Assembly (NCBI RefSeq): GCF_001984155.1
Contig: NZ_MTQO01000024.1
Coordinates: forward strand, 1-64,000
Reading direction: 5' to 3'
DNA from: Actinosynnema sp. ALI-1.44
GTDB taxonomy: Bacteria; Actinomycetota; Actinomycetes; Mycobacteriales; Pseudonocardiaceae
DNA length: 64,000 nt
Part shown: positions 8,092 to 25,792 of the stretch, piece after piece
Layout of the letters: the number at the start of each line of letters is the position of its first letter
Position numbering within the stretch: the stretch's first letter is position 1
Position numbers and translations under genes: made by a program
Notes under the pieces: model-generated
Databases searched by the model: none
Seen by the model: only the letters and a program-made list of their open reading frames with translations
What the model was told of the DNA's origin: nothing

Positions 8092-9282
8092 TTAACAGTT
8101 GGAGGTCGCTGGTTTTCCCGCTACGCGGTCGGCGATGAACGCCCTGGCATCCGCGTTCCCGTGATACACCAGGGTTATGTGGTCGGTCGCCTGCGTCTTC
8201 CACGTCAGCTCGACGCCTTTGCCGCAGTACGCGTCCCGCAACGCCTTGGCCTGCGAGTAGTCGACGAGGTCGTCGCTGGTGGCGTGGTACTGCAGGACCG
8301 GGACCTTGATCGGGGTGGAGCCGAGCTTGTTCTCCGCGACCCTCGCCAGCCACGGCGGCGTGAGGACCGGGCTGCTCGTGGTGTAGTCGAGCAGCTTCTT
8401 GTCCTTGTAGTTCAACAGGACTTCCATCGTGCACGCGTCGGCGCGCATCTCGGTGAGCAGCGCCCGTCCCGCGTTGTTCAGATACGTGTCCAGCTTCAGA
8501 TCGGGGTATGCGGTATCCAATCCCGACAGGGAATACATCAGCAGCCCGAAACCACGCTTGCCGTCCAGTTGCAACGCCACCTGGGTCAGGTCCGCGGGCA
8601 CGCCACCGCCCACCACGCCGACCAGGTTGAGGTCGGGCGCGTAGGCGGGTTGTTGCTCGCCCGCCCACATCGCCGCGCCGCCGCCCTGCGAGTAACCGCG
8701 GAAGGCGACCTTGGCCGTTGTGGACAGCTTCGTTTCCGGAAGTCGTTGTGCCGCACGGACCGCGTCGATGACCGCGTGCCCCATGGACTGTCCGACCACA
8801 TAGGTCGTCCGCGGGTCCGGTTCGTATCCCTCGTAGTCGGTTATCGCGACCGCGTAACCGGCGGCGATCATGTCGTTGACAGCGGGCTGTTCGTAGAAAG
8901 CCCCCGCGTCGATCATCTTCGACGGCGCGCACCGGAAAGCCGGGCCCTGGGTGCCCGCCGCCAGACCGATGATCGGCGCGGTGGCCGGGTCGACGCGCTT
9001 GGGGACGAGCACGGTCCCGGTGACCGCGTCGGGCTGGCCCAGCGCGTCCGTGGACCGGTACATCACCTGGTAGGCGATCACGGATTCGTTGATCGGGGTC
9101 TTCGCCGGGCCGATCTTGGCCGGGCGCCAGCGGATGACGTCACCCGGCGATCCCGGCGGCAACGGCACGGGTGGGACGTAGAAGCTGTCGTCGGCCGGGC
9201 CGGGGTCGACCGCAGCGGCCGGAGCGGCGGCGACGGTCACCGCGGCGGTCATCGCGGCGAGAATCGCGGATAGTGCGCGCAT
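8092..9282 (-). CDS. Secreted lipase/esterase, 396 aa
   Basis: Residues 1-24 form a signal peptide (positively charged start, Ala-rich core, AAA cleavage region), so the enzyme is exported. The nucleophile elbow is GYSQGGGA with Ser198. A later TSDD segment and an ATDH segment near the C terminus supply the likely acid and histidine of the triad. The layout matches the secretory triacylglycerol lipase family common in actinomycetes (LIP family, about 400 aa). ATG at 9282 has GGAG seven bases upstream. It is divergent from the PucR-type gene at 9567, which is therefore a candidate regulator. Confidence 0.88.
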   Translation of the reverse strand: MRALSAILAAMTAAVTVAAAPAAAVDPGPADDSFYVPPVPLPPGSPGDVIRWRPAKIGPAKTPINESVIAYQVMYRSTDALGQPDAVTGTVLVPKRVDPATAPIIGLAAGTQGPAFRCAPSKMIDAGAFYEQPAVNDMIAAGYAVAITDYEGYEPDPRTTYVVGQSMGHAVIDAVRAAQRLPETKLSTTAKVAFRGYSQGGGAAMWAGEQQPAYAPDLNLVGVVGGGVPADLTQVALQLDGKRGFGLLMYSLSGLDTAYPDLKLDTYLNNAGRALLTEMRADACTMEVLLNYKDKKLLDYTTSSPVLTPPWLARVAENKLGSTPIKVPVLQYHATSDDLVDYSQAKALRDAYCGKGVELTWKTQATDHITLVYHGNADARAFIADRVAGKPATSNC

Positions 9283-9494
9283 GTGCTGTCTCCGATATTT
9301 CGAGGTCGATAAATCGTAACCTACCCGCCAGTAATGTCAGAGGCAAACATCCGCTTGAACTGTCATTGCGAAACAATTTCAAGGAATGGTTCATACCTTT
9401 TTACCACGGTGCCGACCAGGCCAAACGACCCAACTTTAGCAAGATCGTATAGTTCCTGACGAACGGACTGTCAGTACTCGACAATAGTGCATCA

Positions 9495-9523
9495 TTGACA
9501 TTGATCCCGGTCATATTTATGGT
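9495..9523 (+). promoter_or_regulatory. Predicted sigma-70-like promoter for the PucR-type gene
   Basis: TTGACA (9495-9500) is followed after 17 bases by TATGGT (9518-9523), 44 bases before the ATG at 9567. It lies in a visibly AT-richer 284-bp divergent intergenic region shared with the lipase gene. No lipase-side promoter of equal quality was seen. Confidence 0.5.
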
Positions 9524-9566
9524 CGATGGATCCTTGCCCTGCTTTTGTCACACAGGAGTGGCGATC

Positions 9567-10778
9567 ATGAGGACGGAACTCGACCGTGCCGTGGGCACGC
9601 CAAGCCAGCAGGCGCTCACGGCCGTGCCGAGAGAACTCGCCGAGCGGATGCGGCCACACCTCGGCCAGATGGTCCGCGACATGATCGTCGAGATCCAGCG
9701 CGCGGTCCCGGCGTACCGGCAGCCGTTGGAGGGCAAGTTCGGCGAGATGCTCATCGGTGGCGTGCAGACGGCCATCGAGGAGTGCTACGACACCATCGGC
9801 ACCTCGCCGGCGCTGCGACCGGACTGGCTGCAGTTCTTCCGCTACAGCGGGAAAGTCGAGTTCCTCGAAGGCCGGACGATGGACGCGCTGCAGACCGCCG
9901 TGCGGATCGGCGGGCGAGTCGCGTGGCGGCACCTGTCCACCGCGGGCCGCGCGCTCGGCATCGAGCCGGACACGCTGTTCGCCGCCGCCGACGCGATTTT
10001 CGCCTACGTGGACGAACTGTCCGCAGTGGCCGTCGAGGGCTACACCGAAGCACAGGCACGAGCAGGCGGTGCGCTGGAACGGCGCCGCCAGCAGCTGTTG
10101 AAGATGATCCTGGCGAAACCGCAGGCACCGAGGGAAAGCATCGCCGAACTGGCGGTGGCGACCGACTGGGAACTGCCGGACCAGCTGGCGGTGATCGCGT
10201 TGGAGTACCGCGACGACCAGCACCAACTACCCGCGACCGCACTCGGCCCGCAGGTCCTCGTCGACCTGGAAAGCGCTGAACCCTGCCTGGTGGTGGCGGC
10301 GCCGGACACCCACCTCCCACGCCTGGCGGGGGAACTGCGCGGCCGCCGCGCCGCCATCGGCCCGATCTCCCCGCTGTCGGACGCACGGCACTCGATGCGC
10401 TGCGCCCGCACCGCGCTGACACTGGTGCAGCGCGGTGCCTTGCCGCAGCAGCCGATCACGTGGTGCCGCGACCACCTGTCCACTTTGCTCCTGCTGTCCG
10501 ACGAATTCCTCGCCGCTCAGCTCGTGCGCCGCGCGCTGGCGCCGTTCGCCGAGTTGACCGAGAAGCAACGCGACCGCCTGACTGCCACCTTGCACGTCTG
10601 GCTCGGCACCAGCGGCAGCATCAACGAGATCGCCAGCAAGCTGGACATCCACCCGCAGACCGTGCGCTACCGCATCGCCCAGCTCACTGAACTGCTCGGT
10701 GACCGGCTCAACAACCCGGCCGAACGCCTCAACTTGGAGATCGCTTTGCGCGCACGGCAATTGATCGATCCCAGGTGA
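9567..10778 (+). CDS. PucR/CdaR-family helix-turn-helix regulator, 403 aa
   Basis: ATG 9567 follows AGGAG at ideal spacing, so the 24 upstream codons of the open frame are not used. The C terminus carries the family HTH (INEIASKLDIHPQTVRYRIA) after a degenerate GGDEF-like domain. The N-terminal 160 residues are a helical sensory domain (RsbT/RsbRD-like in general look; not certain). It is divergent from the lipase and is the second PucR-type gene in 6 kb. A block of five 17-bp direct repeats begins 2 bases after its stop codon. Confidence 0.85.
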   Translation: MRTELDRAVGTPSQQALTAVPRELAERMRPHLGQMVRDMIVEIQRAVPAYRQPLEGKFGEMLIGGVQTAIEECYDTIGTSPALRPDWLQFFRYSGKVEFLEGRTMDALQTAVRIGGRVAWRHLSTAGRALGIEPDTLFAAADAIFAYVDELSAVAVEGYTEAQARAGGALERRRQQLLKMILAKPQAPRESIAELAVATDWELPDQLAVIALEYRDDQHQLPATALGPQVLVDLESAEPCLVVAAPDTHLPRLAGELRGRRAAIGPISPLSDARHSMRCARTALTLVQRGALPQQPITWCRDHLSTLLLLSDEFLAAQLVRRALAPFAELTEKQRDRLTATLHVWLGTSGSINEIASKLDIHPQTVRYRIAQLTELLGDRLNNPAERLNLEIALRARQLIDPR

Positions 10779-10779
10779 T

Positions 10780-10864
10780 CGATCCGCGCTGGGCCTCGAT
10801 CCGCGCTGGGCCTCGATCCGCGCTGGGCCTCGATCCGCGCTGGGTCTCGATCCGCGCTGGGCCT
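10780..10864. repeat. Five tandem copies of a 17-bp unit
   Basis: The unit CGATCCGCGCTGGGCCT is repeated at 10780, 10797, 10814, 10831 and 10848. Four copies are identical and the fourth has one C-to-T change. The array starts immediately after the PucR-type stop codon. A 17-bp period is not a multiple of three, so it is unlikely to be coding. Near identity implies recent expansion or assembly-sensitive sequence. Confidence 0.9.
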
Positions 10865-11092
10865 CCACCTCGATGTGACGACCGCCCGGCGACCACTGCC
10901 GGGACGACCACGGCTGTGGGTCCGGTCCAGCCGTGGTTCCTCCACGAAACCTGTGCCAAACGAGAGCACCCGCGGCCAGCGCGCGCTCCATCTCCTACGC
11001 TCAACGCCGCGACACCAACGAAGGTTCCAACCCCGACGAACTCGCCCACAATACTTGACACCAACGCACCTCGCCTGATCCGGATCCGGATC

Positions 11093-11249
11093 GGCGAGGC
11101 GAGGCGAGGCGAGCTGAGCCGAGGTGTGAAGGAACGACGGCCGGACTGGGGCCGAGGCGCTGGCTGGGGCGTGGTGAGGCGAGCCGCCCGGGCGAGCAGC
11201 GCCGCAGCAAGGCGACCCCAGTTCGGCAGTCCGGCGACCCCAGTTCGGC
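11093..11249. repeat. Short tandem and direct repeats at the end of the tubulin-type operon
   Basis: GGCGA is repeated four times at 11093-11112, after GATCCG microrepeats. GGCGACCCCAGTTCGGC occurs exactly twice (11211-11227 and 11233-11249), the second copy ending 2 bases before the stop codon of the leftward operon. The rest of the 473-bp gap 10779-11251 holds no gene I can support. Confidence 0.7.
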
Positions 11250-11251
11250 GT

Positions 11252-13918
11252 CTACTGCTCGGCGAGCAGCCGCAGGTCGGCTTCCTCGCACCCCTCCGAC
11301 ACGTCCAGCCGGATCACCGACATCTGGTAAGGCAGGTCCTTCGCCGGATTTCCCCGTTTCACCACGTGATCGTGCTGCGGCAGGCGCAGCGAACTGCGGG
11401 TCCACTGCTCGAACGGCCCCCACAGGTACACCTTGGCCACGTTGCCGCGGCCCCTGATCCGACCCTGGTCGCTGAACACGGTCGACGCCAGCGGTTGGCT
11501 CGGCGCGTCGTCGGTCGGCTCCGGCAGCACCGCGGTCAGGAATTCCGGTGTGGACATCAGCGACCCTGTCGAGTCGGCCGTCACCATCGGCATCACTTGT
11601 TCCGGCGCCTGGTCGAGCAGTGCGTCGCGGATCCGGTCGGTCAGCTCGTCCTTGGCGATCGTGCCGCAGTTGCCGTTGCGGAACTCGCGCAACAGCTTGT
11701 CCCTGGCGTGTTTCGGAGGTTTTGCCGGGTCTGCCTGTGCGTCGTTCGGGCCTGGGCCCGGCGAGGCGTCCGGGTCCACCTGCCCACCGCTGCGTCCTTC
11801 CGGGTTCGGGATCAGGGTCTGTTTGAGCACGCCGTAGAGCCGCGTCAGCCAGCCTTTGCCGAAGACGTCCTTGGTTGTCCGGTCGATCACTTCGTCGAAC
11901 TGCTCGGTCGTCACTTCCGGCCGTGCCACCCGGAACGCCTCCGGGCGCGTCATGTCCGCCGGGCCTGGCACCGACGCGTGCGCCTCGCCGTAGGGCTCGT
12001 GCAGCATCCAGCCGATCACCTCGCCCCAGTCGACCAGCACCTCGTACACCGACGTCAGCCGGTCCACTTCGGCGGGCCACCGTTCGATCGCCGCCACGTG
12101 GGCTCGCAGGCGGGAATCCACGTACTGCAGGTCCCGTTCGAGTGCGGCGGCCCGCGCTGCCAGCGCCAGCATCCACAGCACCGCGTATCCGCCGCCGAGG
12201 ATCGCCGCGCTGACGGACAGGATCAACGCCCACTGCGGCAACGGGGTGACCGCGACCGACACCAGCCAGCCCACCAGGCCGATGAACCCGATCAGCATCG
12301 CCCACACCTGGTTTCCCAGCCGGGTGCGGATCCGGTCGAGTTCGTTGAGCACCGCCTTGCGTTCCCGCTGCGCCTCCGCGTACTCGACCGCGCGACGGCC
12401 GAGGTCACCGCTGGCCTTCCGCATCTCGTCGCTGACGTGCGTGCTCAGTTTGCCCAGCAGCGACTTGTCCTCGCGTCGTTCGGTGACCCAGTCGTTGACC
12501 CGGTCGCGGAACGCCTTGAGCTTGTCGCCGCCCGGCAGTTCGGCGAGGCGTTCGTACAGCGCCGCGATCATGTTCACGTCACCGGGCCGGATCCGCCGCG
12601 TGGGCGGCAGGTCGATGCTGCCCAACACGTCCTGTTCGGACTTGTCCAGGTCCAGCCCGCGGCGGGGCGGCGGGGCGACCCACTTCGGATCCGACACACC
12701 CGGCCGCAGCGTGTTCCACGACGCCTCCACCTCAGGTGGCAGGTCACCGCCGTCGACCAGGCTGAAACTCAGCCGCCGCAACGGCGACCACACCTGCGTC
12801 GACACGGGCACGGTCCCCGGCAGCAGGCCCCGCAGCTGGTCTGGCGCGTCCCTGGCCACCTCGAGCATCTCCCCGGCCGTGACGACCCTGCGGCCGATCT
12901 CGTTCGGCGCGACGTCGACGACCGTGCGTTCGAGCCATTCCTGTGCCGCGGTGGCCAGCTCCATGGTCCCGCTCTGCTGCCACTCCAGCATCCGGATCTT
13001 GGCCAGCTGCAACGAGAACCGCACGAGCATCCGCAGGGTCTTGACCGCGAGGTGGTCGGTGGGTTCCTTGATCTCCAGCCGCGGCGGGCGGTACGAGAAC
13101 TCCCCGTCCTCCATCTTCAGCATCATCGCCACCGCCGCGTCGACCACGGCCTCGTCGTGGGCCGTGCGGTTGGGGTCCGGGCCACGGTGCCGGTTGAGCG
13201 ACGTCACGCCGTCGCGCATCAGCCGGTCGACGACCTCCTCCGGCATCATGCGGCCGTCCACCACCCGCGCCATGGCACGGGTGACCACGATCCGGCCGTG
13301 GTTGCCCGCGCCTTGGCCTTCGATCTGGTCGAACGCGCCGCGATCCGCGTGCCGCCACAGCCCCGCGACGGACGCGCACGCCAACGCGGTGTGCGCGCGG
13401 AAGATCTCCGGGCGGCTCAGGCCGAGGTCGATCGCGCCTTCCCTCGGCCGGTCCTCCGGCGAGACGATCACGTTGATGTCGCACCCGGGTTCCAGCAACT
13501 GCTTGGTCCACACGTCGGTGCCGTCGGGCACCAGCAGGTTGATGCGGCGCAACACGGTCTGCGAGCCCAGCCGTGCCTTGAGGTCGTCGGCGAAGGACCA
13601 CAGGTCGCTCATCGGCTCGTCGCCCTTGTGGACAGCGGTGATCGGCCGCAACGCCACGACCCGCACGACTTGGTACTTGTTCTGGCCGTAGATCTCACGC
13701 ACCGGCATCGTCTTGGTGTCCACGGAGGTCACGTACCGCACGGGTGTTTGCAACGGGTCGCCGTGGGCGAACTGGTCGTCGGAGAGGTCGAGCCAGATGG
13801 AGTCGTGCAGCAGGCCCGCCGCTGTCCAACCCGCGATGGTGTCGCGTTCGACCTCCGTGTCGGCTCCGGCGACGAAGGTGATCGTGTCGACCTCGGCACT
13901 GGTCCCTGAGTCGTTCAC
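11252..13918 (-). CDS. Large membrane-associated protein of the tubulin/vWA operon, 888 aa
   Basis: I do not recognise a named family. The GTG start at 13918 overlaps the stop of the tubulin-like gene (GTGA), so the two are translationally coupled. Residues 1-500 look globular with no membrane spans. Around residues 537-600 there are two transmembrane helices (LIGFIGLVGWLVSVAV and a second span), flanked on both sides by charged, heptad-like helices (e.g. RRAVEYAEAQRERKAVLNEL) suggestive of coiled coil. The C-terminal 280 residues are cytoplasmic-type, with a Pro/Gly/Asp-rich linker near residue 720. It may tether the tubulin-like protein to the membrane; this is inference from operon position and topology. 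Confidence 0.8.
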   Translation of the reverse strand: MNDSGTSAEVDTITFVAGADTEVERDTIAGWTAAGLLHDSIWLDLSDDQFAHGDPLQTPVRYVTSVDTKTMPVREIYGQNKYQVVRVVALRPITAVHKGDEPMSDLWSFADDLKARLGSQTVLRRINLLVPDGTDVWTKQLLEPGCDINVIVSPEDRPREGAIDLGLSRPEIFRAHTALACASVAGLWRHADRGAFDQIEGQGAGNHGRIVVTRAMARVVDGRMMPEEVVDRLMRDGVTSLNRHRGPDPNRTAHDEAVVDAAVAMMLKMEDGEFSYRPPRLEIKEPTDHLAVKTLRMLVRFSLQLAKIRMLEWQQSGTMELATAAQEWLERTVVDVAPNEIGRRVVTAGEMLEVARDAPDQLRGLLPGTVPVSTQVWSPLRRLSFSLVDGGDLPPEVEASWNTLRPGVSDPKWVAPPPRRGLDLDKSEQDVLGSIDLPPTRRIRPGDVNMIAALYERLAELPGGDKLKAFRDRVNDWVTERREDKSLLGKLSTHVSDEMRKASGDLGRRAVEYAEAQRERKAVLNELDRIRTRLGNQVWAMLIGFIGLVGWLVSVAVTPLPQWALILSVSAAILGGGYAVLWMLALAARAAALERDLQYVDSRLRAHVAAIERWPAEVDRLTSVYEVLVDWGEVIGWMLHEPYGEAHASVPGPADMTRPEAFRVARPEVTTEQFDEVIDRTTKDVFGKGWLTRLYGVLKQTLIPNPEGRSGGQVDPDASPGPGPNDAQADPAKPPKHARDKLLREFRNGNCGTIAKDELTDRIRDALLDQAPEQVMPMVTADSTGSLMSTPEFLTAVLPEPTDDAPSQPLASTVFSDQGRIRGRGNVAKVYLWGPFEQWTRSSLRLPQHDHVVKRGNPAKDLPYQMSVIRLDVSEGCEEADLRLLAEQ

Positions 13919-16900
13919 AGTACTTCGCCTCCGACCTCGCGGCACAGGTCTTCCAGTACTTCGTGCACGTCGGCGCGCAGTTCCCACGCGCGGTCCGGGG
14001 CCAGCGGCAGTTCCACCGGCAACCGTTGCACGGCTTTGCCCAGCAGCTTCTCGATCTGGGTCGCGATGTTGCCGCCGGACTGGGTGTTCTCCCTGACCAG
14101 GTCGGTGACCCGGCCGAACTCGGCCAGCGCGCGGTACGCCTTGACCGGCTCCGAATCCTCGGCCAGCGATTCGATGAACACCAGCGGGAACGACTCGAGC
14201 ACGGCTGCCAGCGCGTCGAACGGGTCGCCGACCATGACCGGTTCGCCGAGCAGCGGCGCGGGGAACGACAACTCGTTGCCGGGTGCGGTGATCCGCACCT
14301 TGGTGCCGTGGCCGGTGATCTCGATCCGGTCGAGCAGGTGCGCCACGAACCAGCCGCGGACCATCTCCCGGCGCATCGGCGCGGGCAGCGGCACCACGCG
14401 TGTCAGCGGCCGTGCCCGCCGCCAGCGCGCGAACCCCGCGCGCTGGCCCGCGTTCTCGGATTTCTGCTGCCAGTCCGAACGGATCGGGTCGGTCAGCGAC
14501 AGGAACGCGACCGGGTGGCACGGCGCGCCGAGGAACGTGGTGAACTCGATCTCGCCGGAACCGGCCACGTTGAACTGGTCCGCGGCCTTGTCCTCGTCGA
14601 ACCCGGCGCGTTTGACCAGCAGCTGCAAGGCCTTGTTGTACGCGTCGGTGCCCTTGCGCAGCGGGATCTGGCTGATCAGCGGCCGGTTGCCGATCGTGCC
14701 CTCACCGGCTTGCAGGCTGCCGTACGACGGGTCCATCTCCACCAGCGGCGCGGACGCCAGCAGTGCCTGCTCGAACTGGGCGGCGAACCGGTCGATCCGG
14801 GCGCGTTGCTCGGCGTCGGGCTGGTCCCCGCCGAGCGCGTCGGCCAACGACTGCTCGATGTAGGAGCCGAGCCCGGGTGCGGACGTCGCCCATTCCTCGC
14901 AGCGGGCGAGCAGGTCGGCCGCGGCGACCTCGATCCGGTAGACCGCCCGTTGTTCGGTCGCGTCGGCCACCCATTCCCGCATCACCTCGGGCCGCCAGGT
15001 CGCGGTCTGTTCCAGCAGCGACGGCAGGTCACCCGACCCGTCGCCGATGATCTTCCTGACCGCGGCGGTGACCGCGTCGCCCTTGAGCGACGCCGAGACA
15101 GCGGTCTGCAGCAGCTCCAGGAACTTCTCCGGGTAGTCGTCGATGTCGTCGACGAGGAACTGGGTCCGCACCGGCTCGAGCGACTTCGGCACGCGGAAAC
15201 CGGGCGACGGCGGCCACTGCTCGACCACCGACGGTTTCCCGTCCACAGCGGACTCGACGTCCCTGCGCAGCGCGTCGAGGCCTTGGCCGAGCTCGGCCAC
15301 CAGTGGTTTCAGCAACTCGCGCACCAGGTTCTTGAGCAGCTTCGCCGCGCGTTTGCGGACGACGCAGTCCACCGAGCGGCCGAACGCCGACTCTATCCCC
15401 CATTCCAGGCCGGCGATCACGCGCTCGTTCTCCGGCGGGAACAGCCTGCGGCGGCGGAACAGGTTCTTCGGCGGGTCCTCGCCGAGGCCTTGGCCGACGC
15501 GTTCGCGGTAGGTCCCCGCTTCCTGCTCGTCCTGCTGGGCGCCGTTCTCCAGGTGCGGGATGGCCTCGTCGGTCAGCACCCGGATCGTCTCATGCAGCAG
15601 CCGAAGGGTGACCGGCAGACCGTCGGACACGATCGACTTGACCGTCGTCTCCCTGATCCTGCCCTGCACGGCCGTGATCCACGCCTCGGACGTGGCGTCG
15701 AGCAGTTGTTGTTGCTGCCGCACGAAAGCGTCCCGCCGCTCGCCGATCAACGCGATCAGCGTGCCGCGCCACTCCGACACCTGTTCGGGGTTCGAGCCAG
15801 CCGCCGCACGCACCTCGCGGCACTGGGTCTGCAGCACCTCGTCCCGTGGCGGCCGCAGTGCCTCGTAGACGTCCTCGACCGGGTGGTTGAAGTCCGGGCC
15901 GCCGAGCCCTGCCTGCCGCATGAAGTGCTGTTTGCGTTGCCGGACAACAGCGTCCATGTCGACGCTGACACCGGGCGTGCCCTTCATGATCCGCTCGGCG
16001 GCGGCCCTGGCCAGGCACTGGCCGACGTACTCGCGGAACAGGCCACGGCCGAGGCCCACGCTGGCGTAGCCGAGCGCGGAGAACGGCATGGCCACGTCGT
16101 TGCCCGCCAGTCCGAGCGGGTCTGGCCGGGTCGCGGCCTGCTGCCAGTTGCTCTGCACGTAGGAGGAGAACTGCTTCTGGATGCTCGGGCTGGTCGCCCA
16201 TGCGGCCACGGTCCGGCCGACCGCGGCGAAGACCTCCTGCTGGGTGCGGAAGTTGACCTTCTGGTTGGTCGAGCCGACCAGGAACGCACGCGCCGGGCCG
16301 CTGCGCGGCAACTGGTTGCCCACGGTGACGCCGGCCAGTTGGTGCATCGGGTCGATGGTGGGCTCGCTGTTCCAGTACCCGGCGAGCAGTTCGGTGACCG
16401 TGGCCAGTGCGTTGGCCTGCACGCCCTGCCGGACGTCGTCGGCGAGGCCGGCGAAGACGTCCGGCGCGTAGAGGATCGCGGTGGAGTCCGCGGCCCACGA
16501 GTAGTGGTGGCCGCGCAGCAGGTCGCAGACGTCCTGGAACATCCCGGAGCCGGTGCCGCCCGCGAGCGACGAGATCACCACCGCGACGGGGGCCGTGTCC
16601 TTGGCCATGACAGGCGGTTTGCCGGTCAGTTTGGTGGTCACCGGTTCCAGGCTGGCCGCCGCGTCGGCGTGCCGGACCCGTTTGACCACGGTGGTCAGTT
16701 CTTCCTTGATGTGCTTGAGGCGGGTGATGGCCAGTACCCGGCCGATCGAGCGGTACTGCCCGGCGCCTTCCTCGATGGCCACGTTGACCTTGGCCGGGTC
16801 CGGTCGCCAGCCCGCCATCGCGCTCTTGGTCTGTTCGCTGTTGCCCAGTGCGCGGGCGATCGTCCGGTAGGTGACGTCCCGCTGGACCAGTCCGACGTAG

Positions 16901-17100
16901 GTGTAGTTGCCGGACTCGGGGATCGCGAGGTTCTCGTGGGTTTCCTGGGTGGTGCGGCTGTCGACGTGCAGGAACTGCCAGCCCGACGGCATCTCGTTGA
17001 TGCCGACGCGGCGCAGCCTGGTGCTCAGCTCGTTGTACAGGTGCAGCAGGGTGTCGCCGCCGGACCCGCCGACTCCGACGAACAAGAAGGGTTGGGACAC
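13915..17100 (-). CDS. Tubulin/FtsZ-like GTPase-domain protein, 1061 aa
   Basis: The N-terminal 400 residues have the tubulin/FtsZ nucleotide-binding landmarks in order: FVGVGGSGGDTLLH at 7-20 (first loop), EEGAGQYRSIGR at 110-121 (third-loop-like GAG), and the signature loop SSLAGGTGSGMFQD at 177-190. This resembles the divergent bacterial tubulin-like families (Pfam Tubulin_2-type) rather than cell-division FtsZ, which is about 400 aa. The remaining 650 residues are mostly helical and of unknown function. The GTG start at 17100 has GGAG seven bases upstream. It lies 11 bases after the vWA gene and overlaps the next gene by GTGA. Polymerisation on or near the membrane is inferred from family and operon, not shown. 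Confidence 0.88.
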   Translation of the reverse strand: MSQPFLFVGVGGSGGDTLLHLYNELSTRLRRVGINEMPSGWQFLHVDSRTTQETHENLAIPESGNYTYVGLVQRDVTYRTIARALGNSEQTKSAMAGWRPDPAKVNVAIEEGAGQYRSIGRVLAITRLKHIKEELTTVVKRVRHADAAASLEPVTTKLTGKPPVMAKDTAPVAVVISSLAGGTGSGMFQDVCDLLRGHHYSWAADSTAILYAPDVFAGLADDVRQGVQANALATVTELLAGYWNSEPTIDPMHQLAGVTVGNQLPRSGPARAFLVGSTNQKVNFRTQQEVFAAVGRTVAAWATSPSIQKQFSSYVQSNWQQAATRPDPLGLAGNDVAMPFSALGYASVGLGRGLFREYVGQCLARAAAERIMKGTPGVSVDMDAVVRQRKQHFMRQAGLGGPDFNHPVEDVYEALRPPRDEVLQTQCREVRAAAGSNPEQVSEWRGTLIALIGERRDAFVRQQQQLLDATSEAWITAVQGRIRETTVKSIVSDGLPVTLRLLHETIRVLTDEAIPHLENGAQQDEQEAGTYRERVGQGLGEDPPKNLFRRRRLFPPENERVIAGLEWGIESAFGRSVDCVVRKRAAKLLKNLVRELLKPLVAELGQGLDALRRDVESAVDGKPSVVEQWPPSPGFRVPKSLEPVRTQFLVDDIDDYPEKFLELLQTAVSASLKGDAVTAAVRKIIGDGSGDLPSLLEQTATWRPEVMREWVADATEQRAVYRIEVAAADLLARCEEWATSAPGLGSYIEQSLADALGGDQPDAEQRARIDRFAAQFEQALLASAPLVEMDPSYGSLQAGEGTIGNRPLISQIPLRKGTDAYNKALQLLVKRAGFDEDKAADQFNVAGSGEIEFTTFLGAPCHPVAFLSLTDPIRSDWQQKSENAGQRAGFARWRRARPLTRVVPLPAPMRREMVRGWFVAHLLDRIEITGHGTKVRITAPGNELSFPAPLLGEPVMVGDPFDALAAVLESFPLVFIESLAEDSEPVKAYRALAEFGRVTDLVRENTQSGGNIATQIEKLLGKAVQRLPVELPLAPDRAWELRADVHEVLEDLCREVGGEVL

Positions 17101-17111
17101 AGGTGGACTCC

Positions 17112-19529
17112 TCAGACTGGTGAATCGACGGACGCGGGCTGGTCGCGCGGCAGCAGGCGGCGGCAGGCGGTCAGGCAGGACCGGGTGAGGGCGGCGGCCA
17201 TGTCGGTCACGTTCTGGTCGGTGAGCACCACGATCAGTTCCGCGGTGAACTCCTCCTCCCCGGTGACGGCGGCGCCGGTCGTGACGACGACGGTCCCGCC
17301 GAGGTCGAGCGACAGGCCACGCAGCACGCGAGCGGGGTCGTGTTCCGGCGAGACCACCTGTGTTCCCCGGTGGGCGACCACCTTGGTGTAAGCGGGTTTG
17401 AACGGGTTGACCGAGGCGCGCGCGACGAACCGCACCTTGCCGACGGGCAGGCTGCGCGTGCGGCGGACGACCGGGGTGAACTGGTCGGGCCGCGGCCAGT
17501 CGGTCCTGCCGTCCTGGGGGATGATCTCGATCGTCGTCCCTGGCACGACCCGGACGGGGACACACGCGACCCGCAGCGTCCGCGCGCGTTGGAACCGGGC
17601 CAGGACAAGCACGTTGAACAGCGACATCAGCAGCAGCGGCACGAAGCCGATGACGGCCAGCGCGATCCACACCGCCCAGAAGTCGATGTCCCGCGCGATG
17701 TCCAGTGCGAACGTGACCGGGACGTCCGACTGGTACTCGGTTCCGCCGTCCGGTTTCACCCGCAGGGACACGGTGCCGTCCGCGCGGCCGGTCCACCCGT
17801 GGTCGGCGCCGAACCGGAAGGTCAGTTCCCTGTGCTGACCGTGGTCCACCCGGACGCAACTGTCCGGTGTGGACGCCTCGGGGGTCGTGGTGGTCGCGAT
17901 GTGCACGGGCACGCCGGTGAAGCGGCTGTTGCCGTTGTCCACCCACACGCAGCCGCCTGCCGCGGGTGCGCTGATCCTGACGGTGCCCTGTGTCGTTGCG
18001 GTGCCGAGCACCGACGGCAGCGCGAGGCTGGCAGGTTCGAGCGTCAGCGGTGTGATCACTGTGACGTCGGTGACCAGCGGCGGTGGGCTGATGTCGATGC
18101 CGGACGGTGTCCGCACGCTCAGCCCGATGGTCAGCTTCACCTGGGTGGAGTGCCATTCCGGGGGCGGGTCGAACGTCACCGCGACCGTGCCGTCCGGTTC
18201 GGTGGTCGTCCTGGCCGCGCGCCGGTCGTCGCCGTCGGCGATCGCCACGGTCAGCTCGGGGCGGATCCGGTCCAGGTGGAGTCGCGCGTCGGCCGGGCTC
18301 ATGGTCTTGACCGCGAGCGTCCACTGTTCGCCGCGCACGAACCGCGGTTGCCGGACGATCCGCTGTTCGAGGTCGCCGATCAGGTAGACCCGGCCGCCCT
18401 GGGCCTTGCCCGCGCCGCCGTCCAAGCCGACTTTCCACGTGCCGCGCCACTGCCCCGCGTTGGACCTCGGCAGTTCCCCGCTGACGGTGACGATGTCGTC
18501 GCCGAACCACGCCCAGCGCAGCTTCGCCCCCGCGGCCTCCCTGGCGTCGCCCGCGCCCGGCCGGTCCAGGTTCACCGGCGGTCCCGCAGGCGGTTGCAAC
18601 GTCACTGCCGCGCCCGCTCCGCCGGTGTGGATCAGGACGTAGAAGTTGCGCAGCACGTCGTCGAGTTCGAAGGAGCAGCCCTGGCCGCCGCACAGCTGGG
18701 CCGGTTCGCCCGCCGCGCGGACCTTCTGCATCAGGTCGGAGAAGGCGTCGACGAGCCCGGCGTCGTCGCCGGATGGGACGTACACGCCCCAGTCCGCCCC
18801 GCTCTGGCTGCCGCAGCCCAGGGTCAGCCACCGCAGGAACTCCTGTCCCGCGACGGAGAAGTCCTGTTTGGTCAGCGCGACGGTCAGCAGCGGCACCCGC
18901 TCGGCGCGCATCCGGTCGAGCACACCGTTGGGGTCGCAGAGTTCCCGCTTGCCGCGCTCCTTCTCCGCCTCGTTGCCGGGGGCGCTGTCGAGCGGGTCGT
19001 AGTCGCCGTCGGTGAACCAGAGCAGCGCCTGGCACGGCGGTTTGCCACCGGCGGACGTGGCGGTCGCGGCGTGCTCGGCCAGTTGTTGCCGTGCGCCGCG
19101 CAACGCGGCCGCGTAGTCGGTTCCCACGATGTCGTCGCGGTCGGCGAACCCCGAGACGTCGGCGTTGATCGCGGGCGCGTCGGCGACCAGGTCGCGCCAC
19201 GGGCCGGGGCTGAACCCGCGCGCGAAACCCGCGAGGCCGACCTGGACGCGGACCGGTTTGGCCGGTGCCATCACAGCGGCGTCGGTGAGCTGCCGCAGCC
19301 CGTGCAACGCGACCTGGGCCGCGCGGACCCGTCTGGCCGGTTTGTCGGTGCTCTGCAGGCTGCGCGACTCGTCCATCAGGATCAGCACGTCCAGCGCGCC
19401 GCGCTCCTTGACGCAGCCCGACAGCTGCGACATCGCCGGTTCGGCAGGCGCGGTCGCCGCCGCGGCAGGCGCCGGAAGCACCGGCAGGACGAGCAGCGCG
19501 GCGGCGAGCGCGACGCGGGGCAGTCTCAT
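17112..19529 (-). CDS. Signal-anchored von Willebrand factor A protein, 805 aa
   Basis: A signal peptide (residues 1-25, Ala/Leu/Val-rich) precedes a vWA domain of about 230 residues. The MIDAS metal site is visible as D53-x-S55-x-S57 (MDESRS), with GTDYAAAL and WFTDGDYD supplying later ligands. A long extracytoplasmic beta-rich region follows. One transmembrane helix lies near residues 612-640 (WIALAVIGFVPLLLMSLFNV), followed by about 160 cytoplasmic residues. Such topology lets an external metal-dependent binding domain signal to an internal partner. The ATG at 19529 overlaps the stop of the preceding small gene (ATGA). The tubulin-like gene follows after 11 bases. Confidence 0.87.
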   Translation of the reverse strand: MRLPRVALAAALLVLPVLPAPAAAATAPAEPAMSQLSGCVKERGALDVLILMDESRSLQSTDKPARRVRAAQVALHGLRQLTDAAVMAPAKPVRVQVGLAGFARGFSPGPWRDLVADAPAINADVSGFADRDDIVGTDYAAALRGARQQLAEHAATATSAGGKPPCQALLWFTDGDYDPLDSAPGNEAEKERGKRELCDPNGVLDRMRAERVPLLTVALTKQDFSVAGQEFLRWLTLGCGSQSGADWGVYVPSGDDAGLVDAFSDLMQKVRAAGEPAQLCGGQGCSFELDDVLRNFYVLIHTGGAGAAVTLQPPAGPPVNLDRPGAGDAREAAGAKLRWAWFGDDIVTVSGELPRSNAGQWRGTWKVGLDGGAGKAQGGRVYLIGDLEQRIVRQPRFVRGEQWTLAVKTMSPADARLHLDRIRPELTVAIADGDDRRAARTTTEPDGTVAVTFDPPPEWHSTQVKLTIGLSVRTPSGIDISPPPLVTDVTVITPLTLEPASLALPSVLGTATTQGTVRISAPAAGGCVWVDNGNSRFTGVPVHIATTTTPEASTPDSCVRVDHGQHRELTFRFGADHGWTGRADGTVSLRVKPDGGTEYQSDVPVTFALDIARDIDFWAVWIALAVIGFVPLLLMSLFNVLVLARFQRARTLRVACVPVRVVPGTTIEIIPQDGRTDWPRPDQFTPVVRRTRSLPVGKVRFVARASVNPFKPAYTKVVAHRGTQVVSPEHDPARVLRGLSLDLGGTVVVTTGAAVTGEEEFTAELIVVLTDQNVTDMAAALTRSCLTACRRLLPRDQPASVDSPV

Positions 19530-19918
19530 CCGGACACCCACCAGGTCGCGAGGTAGTAGCCGTGGCCGAGGCCGGCCAGCCAGCCCGCGACGGCCGCGCC
19601 GACGACCGGGCCGTTGCTGAACGAGGTCGTGCTGAAGTCGGGGCGCCCGCTCAGGGCCCTGACCCGCAGCCGGTGCAGCACGAGGCAGATCATCGGAATC
19701 CACGTGCCCGCCACCCAGCCGAGCACGTGAATCACGAACAGATCCCATTCCCGCGGTGTGTACAAAAATAAACAGACAGCGCCGAGAACCGCGGCCGCCG
19801 AGATGACCAAAGGCCATCTGGGCGGCCGCGTTCCGCGCCCGTAACGGACATTATCGGCAACGACAGTCACTGACTCCCCAATTCGCTGTGTACCGATGGC
19901 CGCGACTGTGTACCACAT
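19526..19918 (-). CDS. Small membrane protein heading the tubulin/vWA operon, about 130 aa
   Basis: Three hydrophobic spans are visible: one near PLVISAAAVLGAVCLFLY, one at FVIHVLGWVAGTWIPMICLV and one at VVGAAVAGWLAGLGHGYYLA. No family is recognised. The stop overlaps the vWA start by ATGA, fixing it as the first gene of a four-gene operon. The start is unsure: ATG 19918 has no clear ribosome-binding site, while GTG 19870 has GGGGAG but at short spacing. Confidence 0.65.
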   Translation of the reverse strand: MWYTVAAIGTQRIGESVTVVADNVRYGRGTRPPRWPLVISAAAVLGAVCLFLYTPREWDLFVIHVLGWVAGTWIPMICLVLHRLRVRALSGRPDFSTTSFSNGPVVGAAVAGWLAGLGHGYYLATWWVSG

Positions 19919-20010
19919 CCGGCAGACACATTCGCACCCGACCTACCGCCGTATGGAGTCTTGCTAAAGTGCTCCAGCACATGACGCATCGGGTGATCGG
20001 GAGCGGGTGC

Positions 20011-23000
20011 GTGGCACAGTCGAGAAGAACCGCTTTATTGATCAATGTAGAAAGCTTTTTCGCAGGTCAAGTGCTACTCGACAAGGACGGTGAGCCCCGT
20101 TCTCCCGAATTTGGCGAACTACCGTACGGCCACGAGACCGCACACCTCGCTGACGTGCTGCAACGCGGTTTTCATTTCGACGTCGGGACGCACAAGGACC
20201 CGTCGTCGACCAAGCTCGGCGAGCTGGTCGAAAGTGCCATAAGGGCACATCACCAGGACGACGTGGTCCTCATCCACGTTCTCACTCACGGTGTGCCGAA
20301 CCCGGATTTCTACGGGATGTACGCGATAGGCAATGACGGCGAACGCGTCAAGCAGGCGGATGTGGCCAATTGGCTCATGGTGTGCGCGGAACGTGCCAGA
20401 AACGGGCCACACGTGTTGTTCCTGCTGGATCTGTGCGGTGCGGGCGAAGCCGTCCGGTTCGACGACGCGATCCGCCGGACGAAGGCGCACCGGACCTGGA
20501 TCGTGGCCGCGGCCCACGCCGGGACCGGCGCCTTCGACGCGCGGTTCACCCGGGCGGTCGGCCACGTGCTCGAGCGGGTCACCGGCGACCGGCGACCGGG
20601 GCTCGACCTCAGCAGCGGACACAGGTTCCTGCCGCTGGACACGTTCGCCCGGCAAGTGGGCACGACCGTCACCGACCTCGCCGACGCCGAGGGCAGAGCC
20701 GCCCGGCAGACGGTGACCGGCACGAGAGTCGACATCGCCGCGTCGGACGTGGTGCTGGTGCCGTTCTTCCCCAATCCCCGCTACCGCGCCGAGGCGCCCG
20801 CACCACGGGTGGTGCCGTCCGGATCCGGCTACGACCGGCAGGCCGGGCACTTCCTGAGCGCGGCGAGCGGGCATCCGGTCGCCGAAGCGGGCAACGGCCT
20901 GTTCACCGGCCGGACCCAGGAGTTGAACACCCTGTTCGGCCGGTTGACCGGCGAACCGGCGACGCTGGTGGTCACCGGCCGCGCGGGCGTGGGCAAGTCG
21001 GCGCTGCTGGGCATGCTCGTCTGCACAACACACCCGCAACTGTCCACAGTAGCCACCGAGATGACGCGGCCACTCGCGGTCCCGTTGCCCCAGGGGCGGA
21101 TGGCCGCGGTAACCGCACGGGAACTGGATCTGACAGCGATCGTCGTCGCGCTGGGCGCCCAGCTGAAAGGCGCGCGGGACGCGCGGACGCCCCAGGCGCT
21201 CATCGACGCGATCCGGCGCCACGGCGAGCAGCCCGTCCTCGTCGTCGACGCGTTGGAAGAGGCGCTCGACCCCTCGGCGGTGCTGACGGAGTTGTTGCTG
21301 CCCCTGAGTTCCCCGCGGATCTGCCGGTTGCTGGTCGCGGCCCGCTCGGCCGAGTCCGTCGCCGGGCTGCCTGCCGAGCCGATGGACCTGGACAGCGCCG
21401 ACCCCGAGCAACTGCGCGACGACCTGGAGGAGTACGCGACCCGGCTGCTGCGCCGGCTGCCGCCCTACAGCACGAGCGAGTACGTGAGCGCCCGAGCCCA
21501 CCTCGCGGCCGCGATCGCCGAAGCGCTGACGTCCGGCGAGCGGAGTGTCTGGGGCGAGTACCTGATCACCCGCCTGTACGTGCAGCACATCGCCGACCGC
21601 GAGCCGGTGCGGGACGAAGCGGCCGCGCGGGAGCTGGGGCGGTCGGTGCCGTTGAACCCCGCGGACCTGCTGGACGCGGACCTGAGCAGGCGCCCGTCGT
21701 GGGTCCGCCCGGTGCTGTCGGCGGTGGCGTGGGCCCACGGCGACGGCATGCCGTCGGAGGTGATGCCCGCGGTGGCGTCCGCGTGCACGGACGATCCCCA
21801 CCTCCGGCCGACGGACGAGCAGGTCGCGGATATCCTGGCCACCAACGGGAGCTACCTGCGGCGGATGCCGGGCAGCGATGGTTTCGTCCGCTACCAGCTG
21901 TTCCACGAGGGCCTCGCCGACCGGCTCCGCGACAGGTCACGCGCCGCGGCGGTGTTCGACGCGCTGATCAGCACGGTGCCGGGCCGGTGGGATCTCGCCT
22001 CGCCCTACGTGCGGCAGCACGCCCTGGACCACGCGCGTGACGCGGACCAGGTGGACAAGTTGGTGCTGGACCCGGCTTTCCTGCTGAGCGGACCACCGGA
22101 GGATCGCATCGCGTCCTTCGAACAGCTCGGTGACCGGGCGGCGGCCCAGGTCGCGGTGCTCAAGGCGGCCAGGGCCATGCCGGACGACATCGATCCCGAC
22201 CGGAAACGAGCCGAACTGGCCGTCGAGGCGCTCCGCCACCGCTCCCCCGAGCTCGCCGGGGCCCTGTCCGGCGGCCTGCGCCCGATCTGGCACGTCGCCC
22301 TGCCCACGGGGCGCGACGCCCCGGAGTCCAGCCGGAGCACACCGATGTTGGTCGTCACCGGCGGCACCTCACGTGTCGAGGTCTACCACCTGAGCGATCC
22401 GCCCAACCTCGCATACTCGTACAAGCACGTGAGTTCCATCCGGTGTGTGGCGACTGCCCGGTATCGCAACGAGAACGAGATCCTCTGCGGCGGCAACGAC
22501 CACAGCATCTCGGTGTGGCCACTGCGGCACGTGTCGGTGCCGCGGTTGGTCCTGAAAGGTCACCGCGGCCCGGTGCGCTGCATCACGTCCACAGTGGTCG
22601 GCGAACAGACGATCGCGGTCTCGGGCGGGGCCGACCGCACCGTGCGCCTGTGGGACCTGGAAACGGGTGAACTGCTCGACACGATCACCACCTACGACGG
22701 GCCGATCCTCGACCTCGCGGTGATGAAACCCCCCAACCGCCGCAAAGTCGTCGTGGCCAGAACAGCTCACGGAACGCACACCAGGGACTTGCTAGAGCCA
22801 CGGCGGACACGCGAGAACCAGCGGCTGCAGAAGGACGACGCCGTCCTGTTCCCGCTCGCGGACGACAACGCGGCCCTCATCACCATCCACGGAGACTGGT
22901 CGACCGCGCCGAGCCGCTCCGCGGAGCTGCGTGTCAATGACCTGAGTTCGCACAAGCTCATGAAGAGCGTGCGTCAACAGGGCATGGTGACCGCGGTGTG

Positions 23001-23751
23001 CACAGGACAAGTGGCCGGGCAGCCGACCATGGCGGTTGCCACGAGCGACGGCTCGGTCTGGCTCCACGGTCTCGACAGCGACGAGCCGCCGACAAGCTTT
23101 CCGTTGTCGGTACAGGCACGCGGTCTGGCGCTCACCGAGATCGAGCCCACGGCTCGTGTCCCGGCAGCACGCTCCATCGCGGCAGGCCCCGGCTACGGCG
23201 GCACAGTGCTCGCTGTCGGCGACCGCGACAGCGTTCACGTCCACCATCCCGCGACAAGCTGGTCGGTGACAGCCGCTCATGAGACGTTCGCCGCGGTGCA
23301 AGTGCGGCCGCTCGACGACGGTGCCGTCGTGCACGCACACGTCGTGGGCGGCAGGGCCTTCTCCTTTCACCCGCTCAGCCGGAACGCGCTCGACCTGCCC
23401 GTGCCACCGGCAGCGCCCGTCGCGAAGGACAGGGACTGGGTGCTGACCGCCCACGGCGCGATCACAGCGCGGATCGACAACGACGGCGCGCTCACCGCCG
23501 GTGCACACCGCCTGGTCGGGCATCACGGGGCCGTTCGTTGTGTGGCCGCGTGGCGCTGGGACGGCCGGGCGCTCGTCGTCTCCGGCGGTGCCGACTCGAC
23601 CATGCGGATCTGGGACGCCGAGCGCGGTCTGCAGCTGCGCCGGTTCTGGCTTCCCGCGCCCGCGAACGCCATCCGGGCGTCCGGCAGCACCGTTCTCGTC
23701 GACATGGCGGAAGAAGCGATCGCGTTCGAACTCAGGGAGGAACACCTGTGA
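20011..23751 (+). CDS. Caspase-like protease/STAND NTPase/WD40 protein, 1246 aa
   Basis: The N-terminal 250 residues are a caspase-like (peptidase C14) domain with the expected dyad: His93 in VLTHG and Cys142 in LLDLCGAG. A P-loop NTPase follows, with Walker A GRAGVGKS at 323-330 and Walker B VLVVDALEEA at 409-418, then a helical region. From about residue 740 to the end there are WD40-type repeats, clearest at GHRGPVRC...SGGADRTVRLWD (from about 849) and GHHGAVRC...SGGADSTMRIWD (from about 1169). This is the architecture of bacterial NTP-dependent conflict proteins: the repeat domain senses, the NTPase switches and the caspase executes. The GTG start at 20011 is chosen for its GGGAG seven bases upstream; an in-frame ATG at 19981 lacks one. 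It is divergent from the tubulin operon across 92 bases. Confidence 0.9.
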   Translation: MAQSRRTALLINVESFFAGQVLLDKDGEPRSPEFGELPYGHETAHLADVLQRGFHFDVGTHKDPSSTKLGELVESAIRAHHQDDVVLIHVLTHGVPNPDFYGMYAIGNDGERVKQADVANWLMVCAERARNGPHVLFLLDLCGAGEAVRFDDAIRRTKAHRTWIVAAAHAGTGAFDARFTRAVGHVLERVTGDRRPGLDLSSGHRFLPLDTFARQVGTTVTDLADAEGRAARQTVTGTRVDIAASDVVLVPFFPNPRYRAEAPAPRVVPSGSGYDRQAGHFLSAASGHPVAEAGNGLFTGRTQELNTLFGRLTGEPATLVVTGRAGVGKSALLGMLVCTTHPQLSTVATEMTRPLAVPLPQGRMAAVTARELDLTAIVVALGAQLKGARDARTPQALIDAIRRHGEQPVLVVDALEEALDPSAVLTELLLPLSSPRICRLLVAARSAESVAGLPAEPMDLDSADPEQLRDDLEEYATRLLRRLPPYSTSEYVSARAHLAAAIAEALTSGERSVWGEYLITRLYVQHIADREPVRDEAAARELGRSVPLNPADLLDADLSRRPSWVRPVLSAVAWAHGDGMPSEVMPAVASACTDDPHLRPTDEQVADILATNGSYLRRMPGSDGFVRYQLFHEGLADRLRDRSRAAAVFDALISTVPGRWDLASPYVRQHALDHARDADQVDKLVLDPAFLLSGPPEDRIASFEQLGDRAAAQVAVLKAARAMPDDIDPDRKRAELAVEALRHRSPELAGALSGGLRPIWHVALPTGRDAPESSRSTPMLVVTGGTSRVEVYHLSDPPNLAYSYKHVSSIRCVATARYRNENEILCGGNDHSISVWPLRHVSVPRLVLKGHRGPVRCITSTVVGEQTIAVSGGADRTVRLWDLETGELLDTITTYDGPILDLAVMKPPNRRKVVVARTAHGTHTRDLLEPRRTRENQRLQKDDAVLFPLADDNAALITIHGDWSTAPSRSAELRVNDLSSHKLMKSVRQQGMVTAVCTGQVAGQPTMAVATSDGSVWLHGLDSDEPPTSFPLSVQARGLALTEIEPTARVPAARSIAAGPGYGGTVLAVGDRDSVHVHHPATSWSVTAAHETFAAVQVRPLDDGAVVHAHVVGGRAFSFHPLSRNALDLPVPPAAPVAKDRDWVLTAHGAITARIDNDGALTAGAHRLVGHHGAVRCVAAWRWDGRALVVSGGADSTMRIWDAERGLQLRRFWLPAPANAIRASGSTVLVDMAEEAIAFELREEHL

Positions 23752-24572
23752 TCCCGGTTGTCGGAGTGCACGGCGTCGGTTACCACATGCCCGGGTACAC
23801 GCCCGCCGACGCGGCCACGACGCTGGCCAGGTCATGGTCGGCCGCGCTGGCGAAGGGAATCGGCGAGGACCACGGCTTCGACGTGACGATGGCGTACTAC
23901 GCGCACCATCTGCGGCCCGACCACACACGCCAGTCAGCCGACGACTTCGACGATCTGAACGATCTCGACGACGAGGCGATGGAGATGCTGCTCGCGTGGG
24001 ACGCCGAGCTGCGCGGGTTCGAGCAGGTTCCGCAGGGCTGGCCGACCATGCCGCCACGCCAGCTGATCAGCGGCATGGCGTCGTTCGGCGGGTTCGCCGC
24101 GGTCCCGTTCCACGCCTTCGCGCTGCTCGTCATGCGCGACGCCACCACCTACCTGGGTGCACGCCATGCGGCGAAAAGGCAGAACGCCCGTGACGCCGTG
24201 GCGAAGTCCATCCGGAACAGCGGCGCGCGGATCGTGCTGGCGCACTCGCTCGGCTCGGTCGTCGCCTACGAGGCGCTGTGGGCCTGTCCGGAGCTGGCGG
24301 TCGACCTGCTCGTGACGTTCGGGTCCCCGCTCGGGATCAGGGGGTTCGTGTTCGACCGGCTGGTCCCACGGCCGGACAGGCCCGGCAAGCGCCCACCCGG
24401 CGTCGGGCGCTGGGTGAACATCGCCGATCCCGGCGATGTGTGCGCGGTGCCGCGCTGGCTGAGCAGATCGTTCGACGTGGACGAGGATTTCGAGGCTCCG
24501 ATCGGGACCTTCGGCTACCACAAGGCCGTCGGCTACCTCGCCTGCCCGGTGATGGCGGCGACATTGCGGTGA
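23748..24572 (+). CDS. Alpha/beta hydrolase coupled to the caspase-NTPase gene, 274 aa
   Basis: The first residues (VIPVVGVHGVGYHMPGY) give an oxyanion-hole-type HG motif. The nucleophile elbow AHSLGS has Ser167, and a following TFGSPLG segment is typical of PGAP1-like/lipase-type hydrolases. GTG at 23748 overlaps the caspase gene stop (GTGA) and has AGGGAGG seven bases upstream, the strongest site in this region, so tight co-expression is intended. There is no signal peptide, so it acts inside the cell. By context it is a candidate effector (lipase, esterase or peptidase) that the caspase-NTPase protein activates or guards; this is inference. Confidence 0.82.
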   Translation: MIPVVGVHGVGYHMPGYTPADAATTLARSWSAALAKGIGEDHGFDVTMAYYAHHLRPDHTRQSADDFDDLNDLDDEAMEMLLAWDAELRGFEQVPQGWPTMPPRQLISGMASFGGFAAVPFHAFALLVMRDATTYLGARHAAKRQNARDAVAKSIRNSGARIVLAHSLGSVVAYEALWACPELAVDLLVTFGSPLGIRGFVFDRLVPRPDRPGKRPPGVGRWVNIADPGDVCAVPRWLSRSFDVDEDFEAPIGTFGYHKAVGYLACPVMAATLR

Positions 24573-24652
24573 CCGTCATCTCGTGAGTCCATCCGGAGCA
24601 ACCTCCCCGCCGTGGACTTCAGTACTGTTCGTGGCGACAGGGGGAGGCTGAG

Positions 24653-25792
24653 TTGCGACGGTATCTGCGGCCACAGACGGACGTCCCGGCGGTCGAGGAC
24701 TGGTCGACGGCGCTCATCCTCAAGGAGAACCGGGCGTTCGCGCCGATCGCGTTCGCCATCTCGGTTTCCTTCGCCGCCGTGGCGTCGTGCGTCGCGATCT
24801 TCCTGCCGGGCAGTCCGGGCAATGTGGCCACTGTCGTGGTGCTCGGCGCGCTGAGCGTGCTGACGTCGCTGAGCGTGGTGGCCGCTGTCGTGGAATCGGC
24901 GCCCGCCCGGCGTGGACGGCTGAACTCGCCGTGGCGCCGGTGTTCGGCCACGGTCGCGGCGCCCATGCCGGACAACCCGTGGTTCCAGCGGTTGCTGGTC
25001 TTCGACGAACCGGGCACGCTCGTGTTGCGCGGCACGTCGTTGGAAGGCGCACTCGACCTCGTGCTGGATCAGCAGGAGCTGTTCCTGTGCGGCCCGGACG
25101 AGGAAGGCCGGGCGATCATCCGCGTGCCTGGCCTGTGCCAGCTGTACCACGCGCGCGTGGACCCGTTGCTCGAAGCGGCGGACGTCCGCCCCATGGAACG
25201 CGAGCCGGCCGTGTCCAGCCGCCCACTGGACGACCCGGCGGTGGCGCACGCGTTCCGCTATTTCCGGTGGGGCACGAGGCAGTGGGTCTTCCCGGTGATC
25301 CCCGGCGCGGTCGGCTGTGCGCTGGTCGGCCTGAGCATCCGGCCGCTGGCGATCGCGGGCCTGGTCACCGGCGGGCTGCTGCTGCTCGCCGCCGGGATCG
25401 CCACGTCGTTGCTGGCGCTCGCCCCGTTGTACCGGCAGGCCGTCGACCGGCTGGAGGCGGCGACCGAGTGGACGACCGTGCCGTTCACCTTGTTCCCGTG
25501 GGAGCCCGCGCAGGAGGTGGCCGGGTTGGCCCAACTGCCGGGCGGCGGGATGGCGTTGGTGCAGTTCCCCTTCCCGAACTCGGTGCTGATCGCCAACATC
25601 GCCGACACCGGCACCCTCTGGGTCGCCGGATCGCTCACCGACCAGGCAGTCGCGGTCGGCATCCCCCGGATCACCGTGCTGTCGCTCGCTTTGGTGCAAC
25701 CCGACCGCGACACCCCTGACGACAAGCCGCAACCGTGGCTGCTGCGCGGCAACGAACCGTCACTGCGCCGGATCCCCGTGCTCAATCGCTGA
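24653..25792 (+). CDS. Uncharacterised membrane protein downstream of the caspase operon, 379 aa
   Basis: No family is recognised. Two membrane helices lie near residues 28-80, then a soluble segment of about 130 residues, then two more hydrophobic spans near residues 220-260 and a soluble C-terminal domain. The start is a TTG at 24653 with GGGGAGG five bases upstream; no better start is present. It follows the hydrolase gene by 80 bases in the same direction and could be transcribed with it or from its own promoter. A membrane partner or target of the conflict system is a possibility only by position. Confidence 0.7.
   Translation: MRRYLRPQTDVPAVEDWSTALILKENRAFAPIAFAISVSFAAVASCVAIFLPGSPGNVATVVVLGALSVLTSLSVVAAVVESAPARRGRLNSPWRRCSATVAAPMPDNPWFQRLLVFDEPGTLVLRGTSLEGALDLVLDQQELFLCGPDEEGRAIIRVPGLCQLYHARVDPLLEAADVRPMEREPAVSSRPLDDPAVAHAFRYFRWGTRQWVFPVIPGAVGCALVGLSIRPLAIAGLVTGGLLLLAAGIATSLLALAPLYRQAVDRLEAATEWTTVPFTLFPWEPAQEVAGLAQLPGGGMALVQFPFPNSVLIANIADTGTLWVAGSLTDQAVAVGIPRITVLSLALVQPDRDTPDDKPQPWLLRGNEPSLRRIPVLNR

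Follow-up and report, generated by a model that had tools for sequence, protein, structure and literature searches.

A divergent tubulin–vWA and caspase–STAND–hydrolase gene block in Actinosynnema as a candidate conflict cassette

In the 64,000-nucleotide stretch of Actinosynnema sp. ALI-1.44 analysed here (contig NZ_MTQO01000024.1, positions 1 to 64,000; the window), six genes in two back-to-back operons occupy a 13.8-kb block that is missing from the corresponding site of a congener. We propose, at a probability of about 0.42, that this cassette was acquired as one block and holds two modules, of which the tubulin module (M130, VWA, TUB and M888) would act as a membrane platform or outside sensor for a conflict effector formed by a caspase–STAND protein (CASP) and an alpha/beta hydrolase (ABH). 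We infer this joint function from one genome. The cassette would then show a cytoskeletal membrane complex naturally joined to a death module of the caspase type, and the empty site in the congener offers a before/after comparison for it. The features of the locus are as follows.

10779..24619, no strand: gained or lost block, with both operons inside and zero further called genes (from the alignment to congener G002, locus L231)
10779..10865, no strand: tandem repeat with a 17-bp unit (5.1 copies), at the left junction (from TRF)
19526..19918, minus: M130, small membrane protein of 130 amino acids (aa) with two hydrophobic segments; first gene of the tubulin operon
17112..19529, minus: VWA, 805 aa; signal peptide, vWA domain with a MIDAS motif (DESRS), C-terminal transmembrane segment near 620–640, tail of about 165 aa
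13915..17100, minus: TUB, tubulin-like GTPase of 1061 aa; Tubulin_2, FtsZl1 family
11252..13918, minus: M888, 888 aa; transmembrane hairpin, predicted tubulin fold
20011..23751, plus: CASP, 1246 aa; caspase-like domain, nSTAND1/AAA_16 STAND NTPase, WD40 propeller
23748..24572, plus: ABH, alpha/beta hydrolase of 274 aa; nucleophile elbow AHSLG

The block, its empty site and its origin

The minus-strand operon runs from 19918 to 11252 (M130, VWA, TUB, M888) and the plus-strand operon from 20011 to 24572 (CASP, then ABH), with an intergenic gap of 92 bases (19918 to 20011) and stop–start overlaps of ATGA at M130/VWA and GTGA at TUB/M888 and CASP/ABH; the coordinates bear out the spacing and coupling reported in an earlier note made from the letters of this DNA. 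An alternative CASP start (ATG at 19981) would shrink the gap to 62 bases, and a scan of 19800–20100 confined to sigma-70 promoter and terminator patterns found neither. G+C at third codon positions is 0.81–0.92 across the six genes, and five of them have homologues by sequence elsewhere (M130, with positional counterparts only, is the exception), so that the gene set is not a product of chance. A plus-strand open reading frame (ORF) over TUB from an early gene call was false, homology having decided for TUB. PADLOC and NCBIfam gave nothing usable on the cassette proteins, the NCBIfam scores for CASP being low and far below the cut-offs.

In the congener G002, window positions 4670–10778 aligned to one stretch at 89% DNA identity and positions 24620–25792 aligned at 83%, starting 60 bases past the left-flank match, with positions 10779–24619 absent between the joined flanks. 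The six genes are therefore present or absent together, and the operons form a unit, as claimed earlier, insofar as a single block, gained or lost, holds both. The gene content given in the earlier note holds for these six; its 379-aa membrane gene (M379, 24653–25792), considered as a member of the caspase operon, was rejected, since it sits in the right flank of the empty site. M379 starts 80 bases after ABH and is 78% identical in G002, which is without the six genes at this site; it had matches in 3 of 296 genomes of the class draw (its own genome and, at E 4e-5 and 4e-4, two others) and zero in plasmid records.

The left junction coincides with the stop codon of a PucR-type gene, and the right one is a little way upstream of M379. 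The 17-bp repeat begins at that stop codon, exactly at the block start, with a unit similar to the 3' terminus of the PucR gene; a two-unit repeat pattern (at most 3 mismatches) occurs nowhere else in the genome, and a comparison of 10760–11260 with 24560–24700 found no common direct word of 9 bases or longer. The site was read in two congeners of seven, and in the second, G006, part of the left flank is shared (78%) and the sequence diverges beyond it. G+C content (0.697 across 10779–24612; 0.68 and 0.69 in the flanks) is neither for nor against recent transfer.

Among 60 relatives searched, including 7 congeners and 28 same-family genomes, TUB was found in the own genome only, where it is also the only Tubulin_2 match, and by this distribution the six-gene block is accessory. 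Gain, perhaps in a single step, appears simpler than loss because no searched relative has TUB. A single empty site cannot separate the two, and a block that was ancestral and lost in the congeners would leave the same trace; the lack of a TUB match in those congeners and other family members argues against this very unlikely history, as do the best 80 of 159 TUB relatives, which are at most 33% identical over the best segment (35% at the highest among class genomes), with no close carrier seen.

Elsewhere in the window, integrase-like fragments lie at 33170–33835 (recognized by eye only) and 37177–38049 (with a weak Phage_integrase match) in a stretch with few well-scoring ORFs. Few well-scoring ORFs were likewise seen in positions 1–4000, where G+C content is 0.58–0.59 beside a region of 0.65–0.70.

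The tubulin module and the predicted fold of M888

TUB matches Tubulin_2 strongly (PF13809; E 1.1e-49, 170 bits versus a cut-off of 27), and its GTP-binding motifs are intact (T1 GVGGSGG, T4 AGGTGSG), the T4 pattern recurring in 80 of 81 family members and the T1 pattern in 77 of 81. The adjoining VWA protein matches PF13519 below the cut-off (E 3.5e-4, 21.6 bits versus 27) with an intact MIDAS motif, and its signal peptide and C-terminal transmembrane segment suggest that the vWA domain should face outside. A search of the TUB alignment profile against solved structures returned two matches at E 0.05, to phosphomevalonate kinase, which we took as chance.

The best 80 TUB relatives, which came from a scan of genome contigs, were kept as loci with flanks of up to 10 kb, some of them cut by contig ends. 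In 41 of these loci (the long form) there is an additional gene, with a median length of about 750 aa, and 40 of the 41 also carry a GAP1 gene; a representative GAP1 gene matches GAP1-N2 and GAP1-M, a neighbour matches DO-GTPase2 below the cut-off, and these long-form loci look like the GAP1-N2 tubulin systems published in 2020 by Kaur et al. (PMC7159879). The remaining 39 loci (right flank of 8 kb or more in 32; 7 undecided) fall together with the window on the opposite side of a branch with support of 100, in a tree made by a quick method in which the window branch is long (1.92) and its exact placement unsure. GAP1-N2 had no match in the own genome at E up to 0.001 and none in the block (a genome-wide DO-GTPase search was not run), and the window, on a branch without GAP1 genes, does not qualify by this gene as a GAP1-N2 GTPase system. 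Three loci grouping with actinobacterial ones (L036, L039 and L063) are contigs of metagenome-assembled genomes with doubtful labels (Luminiphilus, Bifidobacterium breve).

The partners of TUB recur across the 80 loci (window not counted), VWA in 68 by tblastn and 77 by single-linkage clusters and M888 in 54 and 74, respectively. M130 had zero tblastn matches there; under a permissive criterion and without a random control, a small ORF that encodes a hydrophobic segment was counted at its position for 23 of the 26 short loci, 36 of the 37 long ones and 2 of the 3 that are undecided. TUB relatives were present in 3 plasmid records (26–27% identity), M888 was found in none, and 107 pattern matches in viral contigs yielded no confirmed TUB relative.

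Short-form loci have, as judged from domain matches, both household and conflict-type neighbours. Ten flank proteins scanned comprised UvrD and NUDIX proteins (L048), an arginyl-tRNA synthetase (L109), three GmrSD_C proteins, one protein with type I restriction subunit and Schlafen AlbA_2 domains, and three without a match; two further flank proteins, at L044, were HemD/CbiX and an Mrp antiporter. The GmrSD_C genes, one with an Excalibur domain, adjoin the short-form operons (L033:5739-6662, L037:5660-6823 and L109:15978-17285), and the gene cluster holding those of L033 and L037 was found again in 14 loci.

An unexpected result came from structure prediction, in which M888 adopts a tubulin superfamily fold interrupted by an inserted long coiled coil and membrane hairpin; M888 is thus predicted to be a membrane-embedded tubulin-fold protein without GTP motifs. 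Sequence-level support for this fold was searched for and none was found: M888 has no Pfam match, no T1 or T4 pattern occurs in the family (0 of 72), 46 members gave 32 Pfam families, of which the 25 displayed include no tubulin family, and hhalign gave the M888 and TUB profiles a probability of 0.3–0.4%. By GTP motifs and profile similarity, M888 does not qualify as a tubulin superfamily GTPase. Open-licence PMC papers, supplements being outside this scope, were not found to describe M888 as tubulin-like, and the family may stand under another name in the additional files to the Makarova and Koonin paper. If M888 does have this fold, a family that Pfam leaves nameless, and that accompanies the tubulin gene in 74 of the 80 loci, would be recognised as a tubulin anchored in the membrane, giving the system a mechanism open to testing, a membrane-templated heteropolymer. 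A broader and doubtful extension is that actinobacterial tubulin–vWA operons, mycobacterial and corynebacterial ones among them, encode two-tubulin systems in which a GTP-binding tubulin that is soluble and a tubulin-fold partner that sits in the membrane and cannot bind GTP would form a membrane heteropolymer tied to an outside-facing MIDAS receptor, somewhat as integrins connect to the cytoskeleton, here wired to a caspase–STAND death switch.

The caspase module

The STAND part of CASP matches nSTAND1 (PF20703; E 5.4e-8, 33.3 bits versus a cut-off of 27.1) with a Walker A motif of GRAGVGKS, and its WD40 part matches PF00400 (E 7.3e-16). Peptidase_C14 (PF00656, E up to 0.001) matches in six places in the genome, the window CASP not among them; the CASP N-terminus is called caspase-like from a candidate dyad (His in LTHG, Cys in LLDLCGAG) with like positions, judged by eye, in the N-termini of homologues, in a family that is very diverse. 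ABH matches PF06259 weakly, below the cut-off (E 0.004). One of the other Peptidase_C14 matches in the same genome (G000:C51:1029397-1030770) also has an ABH relative beside it, on the opposite strand.

In class draws of 394 genomes, the CASP query matched 28 genomes and the ABH query 57, each count including the own genome, and CASP matched in 15 of the 60 relatives, own included, five of these being other congeners. The 30 ABH loci read came from 27 genomes, among the better matches of the same draw and outside the own genome; a CASP homologue stands beside ABH in 13 of them. Five of the nine ABH-relative loci printed have ABH adjoining a gene that is putatively release-factor-like, as judged from its GGQ motif. 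CASP matches, many partial, appeared in 31 plasmid records, 24 of them of Streptomyces, and CASP (830 aa) had none in phage records. The caspase–STAND–hydrolase half is of a conflict type; the earlier note's reading of this arm is supported, and the kind is known from PMC7159879.

One system or two, and relation to known systems

STAND proteins oligomerise once triggered, caspases are activated by proximity, and polymers of tubulin-fold proteins carry the nucleotide where neighbouring subunits meet. In the mechanism that we propose, TUB would assemble with or upon the membrane-anchored tubulin-fold M888, a partner that lacks GTP motifs and could serve to cap, nucleate or tether the polymer. 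VWA, its MIDAS outward, would tie this complex to the outside, with M130 as a small membrane part. The WD40 and STAND parts of CASP may sense a trigger and oligomerise, switching the caspase on, and proteolysis may then activate the coupled ABH, which would attack membrane lipids and so stop or kill the cell. Through some contact between the modules, the first would feed the second as a membrane platform or outside sensor.

The distribution of the halves weighs against such a joint system. No hydrolase was found in any of the 80 tubulin loci (2 have WD40 matches, weak ones only), TUB, VWA or M888 matched in none of the 30 ABH loci, and the 12 TUB-positive genomes among 394 of the class (own included) overlap with the CASP-positive set in the own genome and in G143 alone, the latter at E of about 7e-4 in both searches. 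The two modules are, by homology, apart in the genomes searched, which is the outcome that the earlier note had named as refuting its joint-system claim (0 of 80, 0 of 30), and a second genome with the divergent pair was not found. Nor did the surroundings of the block show the density of defence genes that it had proposed to check: Pfam on ten window flank proteins gave regulators, LigD-like, ROK, an integrase fragment and others with no clear defence gene, and PADLOC on two of the flank proteins gave weak partial matches only.

The separate occurrence of the halves fits a rival reading with a substantial chance of being right, somewhat under even odds, in which two independent modules share an accessory site, the tubulin–vWA operon having a cell-surface or membrane-shaping job, the caspase–STAND–hydrolase pair being a separate death module, and the back-to-back layout being one chance event carried along. 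Household genes beside some short-form operons (at L044, L048 and L109) point the same way. However, the block holds just six genes with operon starts 92 bases apart, and 4 of the 10 short-form flank proteins are of conflict type. Less probable still, and in our view quite unlikely, is that the tubulin complex is guarded, the WD40–STAND–caspase protein sensing phage interference with membrane or cytoskeleton and killing the cell via the hydrolase; the shared block and the numbering of tubulin domains among conflict-system effectors in PMC7159879 are consistent with this, but genomes in which no such tubulin was detected also carry CASP homologues.

Whether acting jointly, as we tentatively propose, or apart, the tubulin operon and the caspase plus alpha/beta-hydrolase pairing are each of an already known kind. 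The FtsZl1/Tubulin_2 tubulin with vWA was published in 2010 by Makarova and Koonin (PMC2875224), and PMC7159879 counts two pairings among conflict systems, that of a caspase with an alpha/beta hydrolase and that of tubulin with a membrane vWA protein. The window resembles the FtsZl1/vWA operons in its tubulin-like protein (about 1050 aa), vWA partner, membrane proteins and presumed non-division role; unlike them, it has no GTPase, kinase or OmpA-type genes, and M888 is not named tubulin-like in the part of that paper's text that was read. With the actinobacterial GAP1-N2 tubulin systems (long loci) it shares the same order of small transmembrane gene, vWA, TUB and M888, whereas the window and its sister branch are without GAP1, and two tubulin-fold proteins are suggested here by structure prediction versus the single tubulin gene counted there. 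Two such proteins per system, if M888 is one, would recall the Firmicute two-tubulin GAP1-N2 systems, in which both are named tubulin-domain genes, unlike here, where one is membrane-anchored and without GTP motifs. Finally, a caspase superfamily domain beside an alpha/beta hydrolase is common to the window and the VMAP and GAP1-N1 systems, the VMAP caspase domain always having, in the same source, a neighbouring alpha/beta-hydrolase gene; in contrast to those pairs, the caspase-like domain here is fused to STAND and WD40 parts and adjoins no VMAP, MoxR or GAP1 gene.
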